DNA from: Deltaproteobacteria bacterium
GTDB taxonomy: Bacteria > Myxococcota_A > UBA9042
DNA: 64,000 nt
Reading direction: 5' to 3'
Assembly: GCA_016875335.1 (NCBI GenBank)
Contig: VGRO01000006.1
Location: 1 to 64,000, forward strand
Positions 2,772-53,729 of this stretch are shown piece after piece. Numbering within the stretch: position 1 is the stretch's first letter; each line of letters starts with the position of its first letter. Made by a program: the position numbers and the translations under genes. The notes under the pieces are model-generated. The model searched no databases. It saw only the letters and a program-made list of their open reading frames with translations, and had not been told where the DNA came from.

Positions 2772-5700
2772 TCACGGCACGGGGTAGTAGACTTCGACCT
2801 CGTCCAGGGTCCAGTCATTGTAGCCACCGGCGAGGAAGCCCTGGCACTCCGGCACATTTGGCGAGCACGGCATGGAGGTCGCCGGGCAAGTGTACGTGTG
2901 ACCGAGATTGCTGAAGCCCTTTTTCATGCCGCCGTCGAGGTGGAGGTCGTGCCCGCCACCAAAGGTCGGTCCGTAGCTTGCTTGTACGTACATCGCGAAC
3001 TTGCTGTTGCACCCCTGGACGGGCAGCTTGGCGCCTTTGTTGAGTTGAAAGAGCCAATTCTCCAAGCTGGCCACATAGGACCCGCCGCCCGCCCACGACT
3101 TGGCGGCAAATCCACCGAACAGCAAACCGCTGGTGCTGTGCATGACGACCATCGACATCGGGGCGGCGTCGCACAAGGTGTGGAACACCTTTGACGAGAA
3201 GCCATCCTTGGTCGCCTTGTAGCACAGTTGCCACTTCTGCCCGGCCTTGCCATACCACGTATTGAGCTGCTGTTGCTGTGTGAAACCCAGCAGGGTCGCC
3301 CCTGCAAACGGCATGCACACGCTGGGCGGGTCCGCTCCGCACGGCGACGGAGCGCATTTGCCCTGTGCGCAGTAGTTGCCGCCGCCGCACGGCTGCCCGT
3401 CATTGGTCGGCGCGTTGGCGCACCCCTTGACCTTGTCGCAACTATCCGCCGTGCAAGGGTTGTTGTCGTCGCAGTCCTTTGCGTTGCCACCCTTGCACGC
3501 GCTGTCGGCGCACGCCTCATTGACGGTGCATGCATCGCCGTCGTCGCACGCCCCGCCGTTGGGGATCGGCGCGTTGCTGCAAACCCCGGTCTTGCTGTCG
3601 CACTTGTCGAGCGTGCACTGCTTGCCGTCGTCGCAGTCGATGGGCGAGGCGGTGCTCTTGCGGATGCGGTAGGCGTCGTACACGTAGGCCGAGCCGACGC
3701 CAGCGATGGCGATGCCGGATGGGTATTGCCAGGTGGCCGCGGTGCCGAGGCCGTCGAGCAACGACGCGGTGCCGTTGCCGGTGTCGGTGACGACCGTGCC
3801 CTTGGTGGTCAAGCGGCGCATGCGCCGGTTGTTGTAGTCCGCGACCAGAATCTGACCTTGGGAATCGACGCCCACGGCATACGGGGCGTTGAACTTGGCA
3901 GTGGCGACTGGGCCGTCCGCGTAGCCAGCAGACCCGCCAGCGACCGTGGACACCTGGCCTGCGGCGAGCTTGCGAATGGCGTGGTTGCCGCCGTCGGCGA
4001 GGTAGAGCGCACCGTCTGGCCCAAAGGCCATGCCATACACTTGGTTGGTGAACGTGGCCGAACTCGCCGCCCCATCCTGCTTGCCGGCACTGCCGCTGCC
4101 GGCAACCGTGGTCACGGTGCCATTGGTGATCTTGCGAATGCGGTAGTTGTTGACGTCGAACACGAACACCGCACCTGCGCTGTCCACCGCCACGGCCGTT
4201 GGGTAGTTGAAGCCAGCACTCGACGCCGGCCCGTCGGCATACGATGGGCTGCCCGAGCCGGCCAGCGTCGACACCTTCTGGGTCGCAGGGTCGTAGAGCC
4301 GAATTCGGTGGTTGGCGTGGTCGGCGATGACCAGCCGCCCCAGCGAGTCGAATGCCAGGCCCCACGGGTTCTTGAACTGCGCCGTCGCCGCGTCGCCGTC
4401 GGTGTAGCCTGGCTTGGTGCACTGGCCCACCTCGCTGGTCACCTTGCCCTGCGGCGTCATCTTGCGCAGACAGTGATTGCCGCTGTCCGCGAACCACAGG
4501 TCGCCGTTCTTGTCCACGACCATGCCCCAAATCTGCCCAATCTGCGCCACCGAACCCGTTCCATCCTTGTAGCCATTGGTGCTGCCCGCGACCGTGGCCA
4601 CCACCGCCTGGTCGGTCACGCACTTGCCGCCCACGCAGGTGTCGGCCGGCGTGCAGGCGTCGCCGTCCGTGCAACTGGCGGCGGTCGGGTGGTTGTCGCA
4701 GGCGCCGGTCAGCGCGTCGCAGCCGTCCCAGGTGCAAGCGTTGCTGTCGTCGCAGTTCTTTGCCGATCCGCTGCACGCCCCTTTGCCGTCGCAGGTGGTG
4801 TTGGCGGTGCACGCCGTGAAGTCGTCGCACTTGGCGCCGGCCGACAGCGGCTTGAACACGCAATTGCCCGTCGCCTTGTCGCAAGCATCGGCGGTACACG
4901 GCTGCAAGTCGTCGCACAGCACTGCGCTTTTCGGCGTCAGCTTGCGCAGCGCGTACATGTCGCCGACCACGAGGGCCTTGTTGTCGTCCCAGGTCAACGA
5001 CATCGGGCCCAGCAGGGAAAACGCCAGGGCGTCACCGGCCTGTTTGCTGGAACCGCCGCCGGCCAGCGTCGTGACCTGGTCCTTGGCGAGCAGGCGGATC
5101 CGAGCGCCGTCGGCCAGGTACAGTTCGCCATCCGGGCCAGCTACCATGCCTTGCACATTGGTGAACTTGGCCGAACTGGCCGCGCCGTCCTGAAAGCCTG
5201 AGGCGCCGCTGCCGGCGAGCGTGGTGACGGTGCCGTCGGTTTTGATCAAGCGGATGCGGTAGTTCTCGAAGTCGTACACGGCGACGTTGCCGTCGGGCAG
5301 CAGCGCCATCGCTTCCATGTAGCCGAATTTCGCTGAACTGCACGCGCCATCGGCGTAGCCACTGGAGCCCGAGCCGCACAGCGTGACAACCTGGCCATCG
5401 GGCTTGATGGCGCGCAGGCGGCGGTTGGCGGTGTCGAGCACGTACAGCCAGCCGCTGGCCTTGTCGAATGCGAGTTCCGACACCGTCGAGAATTTTGCGT
5501 CGGCAACCGGGCCATCGAGGTATCCCGCGCCCGCTGCGCCGGACCAGGTCGTCACATACCCGTCTGGCGCGACCTTGCGAATGCGGCTGTTGCCGCGGTC
5601 CGCGACGTAGAGATAGCCCTGGCCGTCCAGCACCAACCCCGCGGGGTTGTAGAACAGCGCCTTGTCCGGCGGCCCGTCGGTCGCGCCGAAGCCAGTGCTG

Positions 5701-7151
5701 CCCACGACGGTGACGATGTCGCCCTGGGGCGTGAGCTTGCGAAGGCGGTGGACATCCGCCACCCAGATCGCCCCGTCGGCGGCGCGGGCGACACTGTAGG
5801 TCGCGACGAAAAGCGCTTGGGCCGCGGGCCCGTCGGCCGTGCCGCTCTTCTCCGCGCCCGCCAACGTCGCAATGGTGTAGCCCACCGGCGGCAGGCACTT
5901 GCCGGTCGCGCACGTTTCGCCGGTGGTGCAGCCGTCGCCGTCGTCGCACGGTCCCGAGATCGGCGCGTTGAAACAGGCGCCCGTCTGCTTGTCGCAGCCG
6001 TCGTTGGTGCAGATGTCGCTGTCGGCGCAGTCCTTGAGGCTGAAGTAGTAACACTTGACGGTCTTGTCGTCGCAGGCGTTGGAGGTGCAGGCGTCGTTGT
6101 CGTTGCACACCTGGAGATCGTAGCCGGTGGCGTCGGCCTTGCACGTCGCGACTTGCGGACCCGCGCACTTCTGGCTGCCGGGCGGCCAGCAAGCGCTCGC
6201 CGCGCACGCACCGTTGACGCACGCCTGTTTGCCCGCGCTGCAATCGACAACCTTGGTCGCGCTCAGGCCCTTGGCGTCGCACTTGTGCACCTCGAAGCCG
6301 GCGCAGAAGCTGCTGTCGGGCTTGCACACCTGATCCTTGCACTGGCCGGCGTCGCAGACCTTGTCCGTGCCGCACGCAAACTGCTGCCACGACAGGCCGT
6401 TGTCGGCACAGATGGCCAACTTGCCGGCTTGGCATTCCGTGGCCTTGGGTGTGCAGATGGGCGATTTGCACACGCCGGCCTCGCACACCTGCTTGGTCTG
6501 GTTGCAGTCGGCGATGACAACCATGTTCAGGCCCTTGGCATCGCATTGCTCGGCGACGTTGCCGTTGCAGGCCTTGGCGCCGGGCGCGCAAATGGCGGTC
6601 TTGCACAGGCCCTGGTCGCACACCTTGCCACTGACGCAATCCGTCAGATACCAGGACAGGCCGTCGTTGAGGCACAGCGCCAACTGGCCGCCCTGGCACG
6701 ACGCTGCATTGGGCGTGCACACCAGCGATTTGCAGGTGCCTTTGTCGCACACCTGGCCGGTCTTGGCGCAGTCCTGGGTGGCGGTGTAGCCCAGGCCCTT
6801 GGCGTCGCACGTCTCGACCACCTTGTCGGCACACTGCTTGTTGCCCGGCGTGCAGACGGTGTCCTTGCATTGGCCCTGGTCGCACACCTTGCCGCTCGGG
6901 CAGTCGATCTTGATCCAGTCCAGGCCGCTGTTGGTGCAGATGGCGAGCTGGCCGCCCTGGCAACTGGTGCTGTTGGGGGTGCACAGCAGCTTGACGCACC
7001 CGCCATTGCTGCACACCTCGCCCGTCTTGGCGCAGTCGGCAAGCGCGGTCTGTGCCAGGCCTTTGGCGTCGCACTGCTGGACCACCGTGCCGTTGCACGA
7101 CTTGTCGCCCGGCTTGCACAGGATCGGCTTGCACTGGCCTTGGTCGCACAC
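2772..7151 (-). CDS. C-terminal part of a giant Cys-rich repeat / NHL-repeat protein; N-terminal part separated by a 177-bp insertion
   Basis: 1459-aa ORF; repeated CxxGxxCDxGxCKxxxCxPG units, NHL propeller repeats (TVAGSGSAGKQDG...FGPDGALYLADGGNHAIRKL) and DDGDACT/CDDGKQCTLDKC motifs. Confidence 0.8.
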   Translation of the reverse strand: MCDQGQCKPILCKPGDKSCNGTVVQQCDAKGLAQTALADCAKTGEVCSNGGCVKLLCTPNSTSCQGGQLAICTNSGLDWIKIDCPSGKVCDQGQCKDTVCTPGNKQCADKVVETCDAKGLGYTATQDCAKTGQVCDKGTCKSLVCTPNAASCQGGQLALCLNDGLSWYLTDCVSGKVCDQGLCKTAICAPGAKACNGNVAEQCDAKGLNMVVIADCNQTKQVCEAGVCKSPICTPKATECQAGKLAICADNGLSWQQFACGTDKVCDAGQCKDQVCKPDSSFCAGFEVHKCDAKGLSATKVVDCSAGKQACVNGACAASACWPPGSQKCAGPQVATCKADATGYDLQVCNDNDACTSNACDDKTVKCYYFSLKDCADSDICTNDGCDKQTGACFNAPISGPCDDGDGCTTGETCATGKCLPPVGYTIATLAGAEKSGTADGPAAQALFVATYSVARAADGAIWVADVHRLRKLTPQGDIVTVVGSTGFGATDGPPDKALFYNPAGLVLDGQGYLYVADRGNSRIRKVAPDGYVTTWSGAAGAGYLDGPVADAKFSTVSELAFDKASGWLYVLDTANRRLRAIKPDGQVVTLCGSGSSGYADGACSSAKFGYMEAMALLPDGNVAVYDFENYRIRLIKTDGTVTTLAGSGASGFQDGAASSAKFTNVQGMVAGPDGELYLADGARIRLLAKDQVTTLAGGGSSKQAGDALAFSLLGPMSLTWDDNKALVVGDMYALRKLTPKSAVLCDDLQPCTADACDKATGNCVFKPLSAGAKCDDFTACTANTTCDGKGACSGSAKNCDDSNACTWDGCDALTGACDNHPTAASCTDGDACTPADTCVGGKCVTDQAVVATVAGSTNGYKDGTGSVAQIGQIWGMVVDKNGDLWFADSGNHCLRKMTPQGKVTSEVGQCTKPGYTDGDAATAQFKNPWGLAFDSLGRLVIADHANHRIRLYDPATQKVSTLAGSGSPSYADGPASSAGFNYPTAVAVDSAGAVFVFDVNNYRIRKITNGTVTTVAGSGSAGKQDGAASSATFTNQVYGMAFGPDGALYLADGGNHAIRKLAAGQVSTVAGGSAGYADGPVATAKFNAPYAVGVDSQGQILVADYNNRRMRRLTTKGTVVTDTGNGTASLLDGLGTAATWQYPSGIAIAGVGSAYVYDAYRIRKSTASPIDCDDGKQCTLDKCDSKTGVCSNAPIPNGGACDDGDACTVNEACADSACKGGNAKDCDDNNPCTADSCDKVKGCANAPTNDGQPCGGGNYCAQGKCAPSPCGADPPSVCMPFAGATLLGFTQQQQLNTWYGKAGQKWQLCYKATKDGFSSKVFHTLCDAAPMSMVVMHSTSGLLFGGFAAKSWAGGGSYVASLENWLFQLNKGAKLPVQGCNSKFAMYVQASYGPTFGGGHDLHLDGGMKKGFSNLGHTYTCPATSMPCSPNVPECQGFLAGGYNDWTLDEVEVYYPVP

Positions 7152-7171: not shown

Positions 7172-7352
7172 CTAGGAGCCTGTCGGCGAAACGCCAGAAT
7201 CGGCAGATTCTGGCCGACAGGCTCCTAGGCAGGCCGCGGCTGCGGCCTGCCAGCGACCGAAACTGCCTGAATTTACTTCAGACAGTTCTTGGTCGCTGCC
7301 CCGATCGCAACCAGCACGGAGCCAGTCGGACGATAGTCCGACAGGCTCCTAG
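7172..7352. mobile_element. CTAG-bounded multi-hairpin MITE-like element (element A), 177-bp net insertion
   Basis: CTAGGAGCCTGTCGG at the left end and CCGACAGGCTCCTAG at the right end; four consecutive stem-loops; removing one CTAG-to-CTAG length restores the flanking Cys-rich ORF (GLAWT-LADCASGAVCDQGQC). Confidence 0.85.
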
Positions 7353-39409: not shown

Positions 39410-39592
39410 TCGCGGCCGGTCTCCTGGCTGGCAGCCCGCGGCGTCGGCCTTCCCGGCGGTGGTCGCCAGTGGCCTTGTGGGCGCATGCGCCCGACGCGGT
39501 GGTTCGGTCACCGACTGCGGCGACCGATGCTGCATACAGTGGCGGGTCCGCGCCGGCTTTGCACCGGCTTCCCTCTGGCGCGCGACGCGGCT
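39410..39592 (-). ncRNA. Cobalamin riboswitch upstream of btuB
   Basis: Minus strand reads GGGAAGCCGGTGCAAAGCCGGCGCGGACCCGCCACTGTA ... GCCAGGAGACCGG, hallmark B12-box elements. Confidence 0.9.
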
Positions 39593-46392: not shown

Positions 46393-47007
46393 TCAGCAGA
46401 AGTTCTGCGTCACCAACACCTGCCCGTCGGCCGTCACCGAGAGGCCAATGGCTTGACTGTGCCACGCCGGCTGTAACAGGTTGGCCTTGTGGCCCGGCGA
46501 GTTCCACCAGCCCTGCACGGTCTCTTCGGCGAGTTCGCCCGCGCTGCGCACGGTTTCGGCTTCGCGGCGACCGTCGGACCACACCCGCCAGCGCGGTACG
46601 CGGTGCACGAGCGCCAGATTTTCGCCGCCGGTCAGGAACCGGCCGGGTCCGTTGGGCACGCGGCACACGTAGCCGGCCCGGCTGTAGCGATCGGTGACCT
46701 GGGCGCCATCGGGCGCGTCGTGGGCAAAATAGCGTTGCCTGCGCATGTCGGCGCTGTGGGCGGTGGCGATGCGCGCGAGATCCGGGTTCCAGGCCAACTG
46801 CGACAGCCCCTCGCGGGCGCGGATGGCGTTGACGCGCACATGGATCTGCTGGGCGAGGTCACCCACATCGAGCGGACCCAGGGCGTCGACCACGGCCGCG
46901 GCCGCCGGGTCAGCCTCAGGCAGCGGCTTGGCACAACCTGCAACGACGGCAAACGCGGCGGCGAGGCAGACGCTCGGTAAGGGACTGGAAAATAACAAGT
47001 CGATCAC
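46393..47007 (-). CDS. CAP/SCP-domain lipoprotein whose apparent start lies inside the 138-bp repeat
   Basis: VNAIRAREGLSQLAWNPDLARIATAHSADMRRQRYFAHDAPDG...GENLALVHR...WWNSPGHKANLLQPAW; signal CLAAAFAVVAGC with no ATG outside the repeat. Confidence 0.7.
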   Translation of the reverse strand: MIDLLFSSPLPSVCLAAAFAVVAGCAKPLPEADPAAAAVVDALGPLDVGDLAQQIHVRVNAIRAREGLSQLAWNPDLARIATAHSADMRRQRYFAHDAPDGAQVTDRYSRAGYVCRVPNGPGRFLTGGENLALVHRVPRWRVWSDGRREAETVRSAGELAEETVQGWWNSPGHKANLLQPAWHSQAIGLSVTADGQVLVTQNFC

Positions 47008-47394
47008 GCTCACATCAGGACGGAGCCGCGAGTCGGACCTTTGGTCCGCGAGCTGGCGACCCACGGAGCAAGCAAACGGGCCCGAGAAATGATTGAGTAA
47101 ATCATTTCCTGGCCCTAAGGGACTGGAAAATAACAAGTCGATCACGCTCACATCAGGACGGAGCCGCGAGTCGGACCTTTGGTCCGCGAGCTGGCGACCC
47201 ACGGAGCAAGCAAACGGGCCCGAGAAATGATTGAGTAAATCATTTCCTGGCCCTAAGGGACTGGAAAATAACAAGTCGATCACGCTCACATCAGGACGGA
47301 GCCGCGAGTCGGACCTTTGGTCCGCGAGCTGGCGACCCACGGAGCAAGCAAACGGGCCCGAGAAATGATTGAGTAAATCATTTCCTGGCCCTAA
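46981..47394 (+). repeat. Three tandem copies of the 138-bp structured repeat (46981, 47119, 47257)
   Basis: Direct alignment: starts at 46981, 47119 and 47257; each 138 bp, identical by eye. Confidence 0.97.
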
Positions 47395-53453: not shown

Positions 53454-53729
53454 GGGGCTGGAAAATAATAAGTCGATCACGCTCACATCAGGACGGAGCC
53501 GCGAGTCGGACCTTTGGTCCGCGAGCTGGCGACCCACGGAGCAAGCAATCGGGCCCGAGAAATGATTGAGTAAATCATTTCCTGGCCCTAAGGGGCTGGA
53601 AAATAATAAGTCGATCACGCTCACATCAGGACGGAGCCGCGAGTCGGACCCTTGGTCCGCGAGCTGGCGACCCACGGAGCAAGCAATCGGGCCCGAGAAA
53701 TGATTGAGTAAATCATTTCCTGGCCCTAA
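53454..53729 (+). repeat. Two tandem copies of the 138-bp structured repeat (53454, 53592)
   Basis: ggggctggaaaataataagtcgatcac...ccctaa twice, 138-bp period. Confidence 0.97.

Follow-up and report, generated by a model that had tools for sequence, protein, structure and literature searches.

The repeat and its copies in the window

The window, which is the whole stretch of 64,000 nt that was analysed and begins at base 1 of contig C6, carries a short repeated element at seven places: 1–79 (partial), 2603–2740, 46981, 47119, 47257, 53454 and 53592. All were correctly located in an earlier examination of the same DNA (the sequence-only reading). Alignment of copies together with their flanks showed the element to be 135 bp long (GGGACTGG...CTGGCCC) and to be accompanied by a 3-bp target duplication, TAA or TTA in most cases; the three bases after the 135-bp unit (GGGACTGGAAAATAAT...AATCATTTCCTGGCCC) are the same as the three in front of it. 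Its terminal inverted repeats are imperfect (GGGACTGGAAAATAAT / GGGCCAGGAAATGATT) and are better matched in relatives (12/12 in L247) than in the window element. The element is devoid of genes, as was originally noted. The features are as follows.

1–76, + strand: partial element, cut by the contig start; TAA follows at 77–79
2603–2737, + strand: single element; TAG duplication at 2600–2602 and 2738–2740, TAG also being the stop codon of ORF 122–2602
46981–47115, + strand: triple array, copy 1; TAA at 46978–46980 and 47116–47118
46981–46996, + strand: left terminal inverted repeat of copy 1, GGGACTGGAAAATAAC
47022–47060, + strand: conserved core hairpin, GGAGCCGCGAGTCGG...CCGCGAGCTGGCGAC, with the CGAG/CGAG tandem G.A motif; includes the small hairpin 47034–47048
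47061–47075, + strand: conserved tail after the core, CCCAC..AGCAAGCAA
47078–47115, + strand: right-end hairpin, formed by an inner inverted copy of the right end and the right end itself
47100–47115, + strand: right terminal inverted repeat of copy 1, reverse complement GGGCCAGGAAATGATT
47119–47253, + strand: triple array, copy 2, same sequence as copy 1; TAA at 47254–47256
47257–47391, + strand: triple array, copy 3, same sequence as copy 1; TAA at 47392–47394
53454–53588, + strand: double array, copy 1; CAA at left, shared TAA at 53589–53591
53592–53726, + strand: double array, copy 2; TAA at 53727–53729

A strict 138-bp period had been described, and TRF does report period 138 in the window (3.0 copies, 100% match; 2.0 copies, 99%), but the unit is 135 bp, since the arrays consist of 135-bp elements plus one shared target triplet. 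Both hairpins of the sequence-only reading exist, although the right one stops 3 bp before the boundary, the last TAA or TAG being target duplication. The single orientation it reported holds for the window, where all copies are on the + strand, but not genome-wide, where both orientations occur.

A predicted CAP-domain gene (PF00188; 46393–46980, − strand) has the triple array (46981–47394) at its 5′ end, and gene prediction on the empty site of the array reads through the target. Elsewhere in the window, a − strand gene (2772–7151) specifies a 1459-aa protein with NHL, TLDc and Dictyostelium-type repeats and includes an imperfect 264-bp DNA repeat (6600–7151). A different palindromic repeat (~7173–7350), with GGAGCCTGTCGG ends at CTAG, occurs many times in the genome, and on contig C350 an IS1182-like transposase gene is bounded by these ends. 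The sole Rfam match in the window is a Cobalamin riboswitch (39418–39573, − strand).

Target duplications, empty site and arrays

A 940-kb sample of the genome contains 40 near-complete copies, 34 of them flanked by an exact 3-bp duplication. The sequence TNA accounts for 30 of these 34 (TAA 16, TTA 12, TCA 2), the rest being TAG (2), GAA (1) and TTG (1). The three bases are part of the target, as they differ between copies that have the same interior. TAA and TTA are rare in this genome (67% G+C), numbering 551 in the ~940-kb sample with sites near copies left out. On contig C289, one copy splits an IS5-type transposase gene at GA/TTA/CGAG; joining the flanks restores the reading frame (...RYRRLSKDYEQSARSSYAW...), with the uninterrupted C-terminus ...RTFGWLGRYRRLSKDYEQSARSSYAWVQIALISLL..., and the two halves match NCBIfam transpos_IS5_3 with E-values of 4e-26 and 6e-29, slightly under its cut-off. 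Short, without a gene, bounded by terminal inverted repeats and dispersed in many copies with an empty site in this IS5-type gene, the element has the features of a MITE.

The sequence-only reading had suggested selection on, or mobility through, an RNA or single-stranded DNA structure. Mobility is borne out by the duplications, empty site and copy number, and selection on structure is supported by covariation (see below), but the single-strand route (RAYT, TnpB, IscB) is not, and the element, with its inverted repeats and TNA duplication, appears to move by ordinary DDE-type DNA transposition. Single-strand transposition of the REP/RAYT or IS200/IS605 kind, with the hairpins as enzyme targets, would suit the stable hairpin at one end and the palindromic layout, but the variable 3-bp target duplications and the two inverted ends make it very unlikely. 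No target duplication accompanies the insertion of HUH/Y1 elements belonging to these families, and membership was rejected on the duplications found in 34/40 copies.

The three copies of the triple array are identical and share a private variant (AACAAG with CACGCTC), which indicates local amplification or assembly inflation, and the copies of the double array (53454–53726) likewise have private variants in common. In the L024 array two subfamilies stand side by side, so there the second copy inserted beside the first. Adjacent copies are exclusively head-to-tail, but this orientation was left out as evidence because inverted neighbours would form long palindromes and may be lost. A rival reading, that the repeat is only a dispersed satellite whose arrays stem from simple slippage or from faulty assembly, could draw on the fragmented state of the MAG (G000; 6.66 Mb, 479 contigs, 92% complete), in which contigs end in copies, and on the identity of the three copies at 46981. 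We regard this as highly improbable in view of the individual duplications of dispersed copies, the empty site, the array members of different subfamilies (L024) and the copies in other assemblies that lie close together or have several cores. The artefact objection raised at the outset fails for the entire family, since copies are present in several other species.

Copy number and distribution

Exact matches to the right hairpin number 153 in the 6.66 Mb of G000, compared with 0 for a reversed control pattern, and the genome-wide count that had been proposed as a check returned at least 150 covariance-model matches on both strands. Some 26 identical copies and six diverged copies in this genome show recent and old bursts of activity. 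The covariance model of the element (R1) found relatives in 13 of the 22 genomes of a family-level group of freshwater/groundwater Myxococcota, with at least 150 copies in each of G000 and two congeners (G003, G005); subfamilies are present in sister species, and copy number among close relatives ranges from 0 to at least 150. A core-only model (R2), searched under stricter filters by which weak matches may be lost, detected the core in 16/22 genomes of the group and in 0/30 genomes of the other families of the class. When named genomes were scanned with a pattern, matches came only from MAGs labelled Myxococcales, Deltaproteobacteria or Proteobacteria, with sources including Lake Erken, Lake Baikal and groundwater. 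The repeat breaks the assemblies of genomes carrying it.

No match to the element was found in the plasmid and phage collections searched, and matches in viral contigs were unrelated (L031, which is AT-rich, and L201, without the element). The possibility that the repeat is a known Rfam family was discounted, as Rfam gave no match to the element at the gathering threshold, its HEARO/IscB and IS605 RNA models included, and in permissive mode the best E-value at the window locus exceeded 1.

Relatives with other ends

Relatives in five genomes (G001, G002, G004, G006, G008) have other inverted-repeat sequences but an equal layout and TNA duplications. All GGG-type members, with a left-end consensus of about GGGNCTGTNAAANAATAA(G/C)TCGATC, consist of a left end, a core and a hairpin right end, and their duplications are mostly TNA. 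The right inverted repeat has an inverted copy of itself on its inner side, which makes this end a hairpin. The core, a hairpin of ~40 nt, is common to elements with differing ends and may be present two or three times per element: L168 and L195 are two-core elements of ~265 bp, and L184 has three tandem cores. In genus g6 the same core lies between different ends (TAAACATGCCTGC..., called by eye). A core-bearing element of this genus occupies apparently one site in two species (L242 in G010, L250 in G014), where the matching left flanks indicate an old shared insertion. Two further arrangements were seen in G000. At L249 (1–290, contig C171) two core variants alternate with a period of ~143 bp, the usual right-end hairpin being absent between units, and at L233 (59–112, contig C196) a core copy lies beside an apparent tRNA/tmRNA 3′ end, on the opposite strand.

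Folded structure of the core

Covariation, a check proposed at the outset, supports both the core and the right-end hairpins. The share of cells that pair is 88.8% in a set of 12 sequences drawn from five species, compared with 78.2% in shuffled and at most 47.5% in slid alignments, and 8 pairs change on both sides, a number matched by 0/500 shuffles; none of five pairing measures was reached by any of the 500 shuffles, and the slid controls were all lower. The 37 core sequences form a long imperfect hairpin with 6 pairs changed on both sides (0/500 shuffles), one being C-G at columns 8/31, which is replaced by T-A. On the inner side the tandem G.A motif CGAG/CGAG is conserved; further out, several genomes have Watson-Crick GTC/GAC in place of GGA/GAC. 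The G-U pairs seen at columns 6/34 speak for the written strand being single-stranded, either as RNA or as ssDNA. The RNAalifold fold of the core alignment differs from the hairpin pairing, and the exact pairing given here is a proposal supported by covariation rather than a prediction.

Insertion sites and the role of the core

Compensatory changes in a conserved core, together with G-U pairs confined to one strand, could also be expected of a structured host RNA or regulatory element (3′-UTR hairpin, insulator or small RNA) employed by the host at many loci, for which mobility is only a means of spread. The position of insertions might be read in the same way, as 10/47 fall exactly on a stop codon, compared with 3.3% of TAA/TTA sites (binomial p ~3e-6). 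This enrichment, however, can be explained by survival bias, since duplication of the triplet restores the stop codon and renders such insertions harmless. Moreover, 14/47 insertions lie within predicted genes, and other copies besides that on C289 interrupt long predicted genes. Orientation relative to neighbouring genes, which had been suggested as a check, shows no bias at 33 classified non-genic sites. Together with the range of copy number among close relatives (0 to at least 150) and the loss of the core stem in old copies, these results make a primary role as host RNA or regulatory element unlikely.

The decay of the stem can be followed in the divergence values. Comparison of active subfamilies gives 7.8% divergence for the conserved stem and tail and 34.3% for the remaining sequence, whereas in six old copies from G000 (found with a core-containing query and compared against the modern consensus) the stem has diverged by 20.6% and the rest by 33.1%. 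The stem values of old copies and of active subfamilies differ significantly (Fisher p = 0.0008), although old copies retain some excess stem conservation (p = 0.001). The core is thus kept in moving lineages and decays in dead copies, a pattern that points to selection for mobility, in which the core would act in cis, and away from use by the host at the individual sites.

Search for a transposase

Neither G000 (92% complete) nor its relatives yielded, in pattern and profile searches, an autonomous element or partner transposase with the ends of the MITE, a partner that the sequence-only reading had proposed looking for. In G000 the left end GGGRCTGGAAAA occurs in MITE copies only, besides two chance matches, and a looser left-end pattern run on eight genomes gave no autonomous element, the core-less matches being due to chance (for example, inside uvrB). 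The DDE_Tnp_1 matches with ends that were examined have other ends than the MITE, and none of the PF01609 matches examined has its ends; we take the latter to be IS1182-, ISAs1-, IS1634- and IS5-like, the IS5 call being backed by NCBIfam transpos_IS5_3. One PF13586 match passed the cut-off, but elsewhere, and the ISAzo13 transposase (PF07592) had no match in the genome, nor did its controls. PF13359 (DDE_Tnp_4) was found in 0/22 family genomes, and PIF/Harbinger membership was ruled out on this count. The autonomous partner may have been lost, may be missing from the incomplete assembly, or may act across diverged ends.

A second repeat family (L118, 9450–9649; L123, 9036–9235; L051, up to 1708; L220), with GAGGGTGT ends and TWA duplications, comprises ~200-bp palindromic MITEs and IS5-type IS elements (L051, L220), which shows that enzymes of this kind have been present in the host group. 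Its members often adjoin the 135-bp element. At L208 (530–690, G006), a MITE with good ends and a degenerate core adjoins a truncated IS5-type transposase gene.

Discussion

The analysis confirms a high-copy MITE family with an ordinary mechanism and an unusual core that is conserved, modular and covarying. It is matched in none of the libraries searched, and its kind is ordinary save for a core that is kept across genera while the ends change. We consider it very probable that the repeat is a non-autonomous DNA transposon of 135 bp with a TNA duplication, moved in trans by what is probably an IS5-family, IS1031-like transposase, with the core and right-end hairpin as a putative cis-acting signal and arrays formed through shared TAA/TTA. 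The MITE would insert with a 3-bp TNA duplication, mostly TAA/TTA, using a transposase supplied in trans, probably of the IS1031-like group of the IS5 family. The two hairpins would be kept since only elements having them go on being copied. Insertion beside an existing copy would yield the period-138 arrays, in which copies share one duplicated TAA/TTA, and local amplification may follow, as in the identical triple array.

An IS5/IS1031-type transposase is suggested by the TNA duplication and the GGGCCTGT-like ends. Members of the IS1031 group of IS5 have exclusively 3-bp TNA duplications, and one of them, ISLrh, has the end GAACCTGTCTAG (PMC12016507), which is close to the ends found in the MITE family (including GGGCCTGT, GGAGCTGTCTAA and GGAACTGTGACA) and resembles their GGRNCTGT(C) form. 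IS1031 elements carry a transposase, whereas none with these ends was found here, and the likeness is given as a resemblance in duplication and end sequence, with no claim of membership.

IS5-family MITEs of the Correia/NEMIS type and BrickBuilt of Porphyromonas are similarly small and geneless, with inverted ends and stem-loops; their mobilisation in trans by IS5-family transposases has been proposed, and BrickBuilt has internal tandem units (PMC4596501). The present family differs in its strict 3-bp TNA duplication, in having no partner IS with the same ends among those found, and in its module, which is unrelated in sequence and recurs across genera whose ends differ. BOX elements of Streptococcus pneumoniae are also composite mobile repeats with terminal modules and a multi-copy structured centre, often nested with other repeats (PMC3049150), but no sequence relation is claimed, and the present elements belong to another phylum, have a clear target duplication and show compensatory core changes between genera. 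The eukaryotic PIF/Harbinger 'Tourist' MITEs share the TWA duplication, short length and high copy number (PMC4482050), whereas the element described here is bacterial and its family genomes lack a DDE_Tnp_4 gene.

A further suggestion, which we put forward as a doubtful but possible one, is that the ~40-nt core hairpin, with its tandem G.A motif, and the conserved tail are a family-specific RNA or ssDNA module, needed in cis for mobilisation or copy control, and that MITEs whose ends are unrelated have carried it (ends GGG.../TNA in most genera, TAAACATGCCTGC... in one other). If this were true, the module would be a parasitic signal that outlives transposon ends. MITEs are usually defined by their ends and the interior is treated as filler; in this family the ends diverge, and of all parts the interior hairpin is under the strongest constraint across genera. 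To our knowledge, no bacterial MITE has been established to depend on such a folded module. The family makes it possible to test whether an internal folded module aids a transposon in being recognised or in escaping host control.
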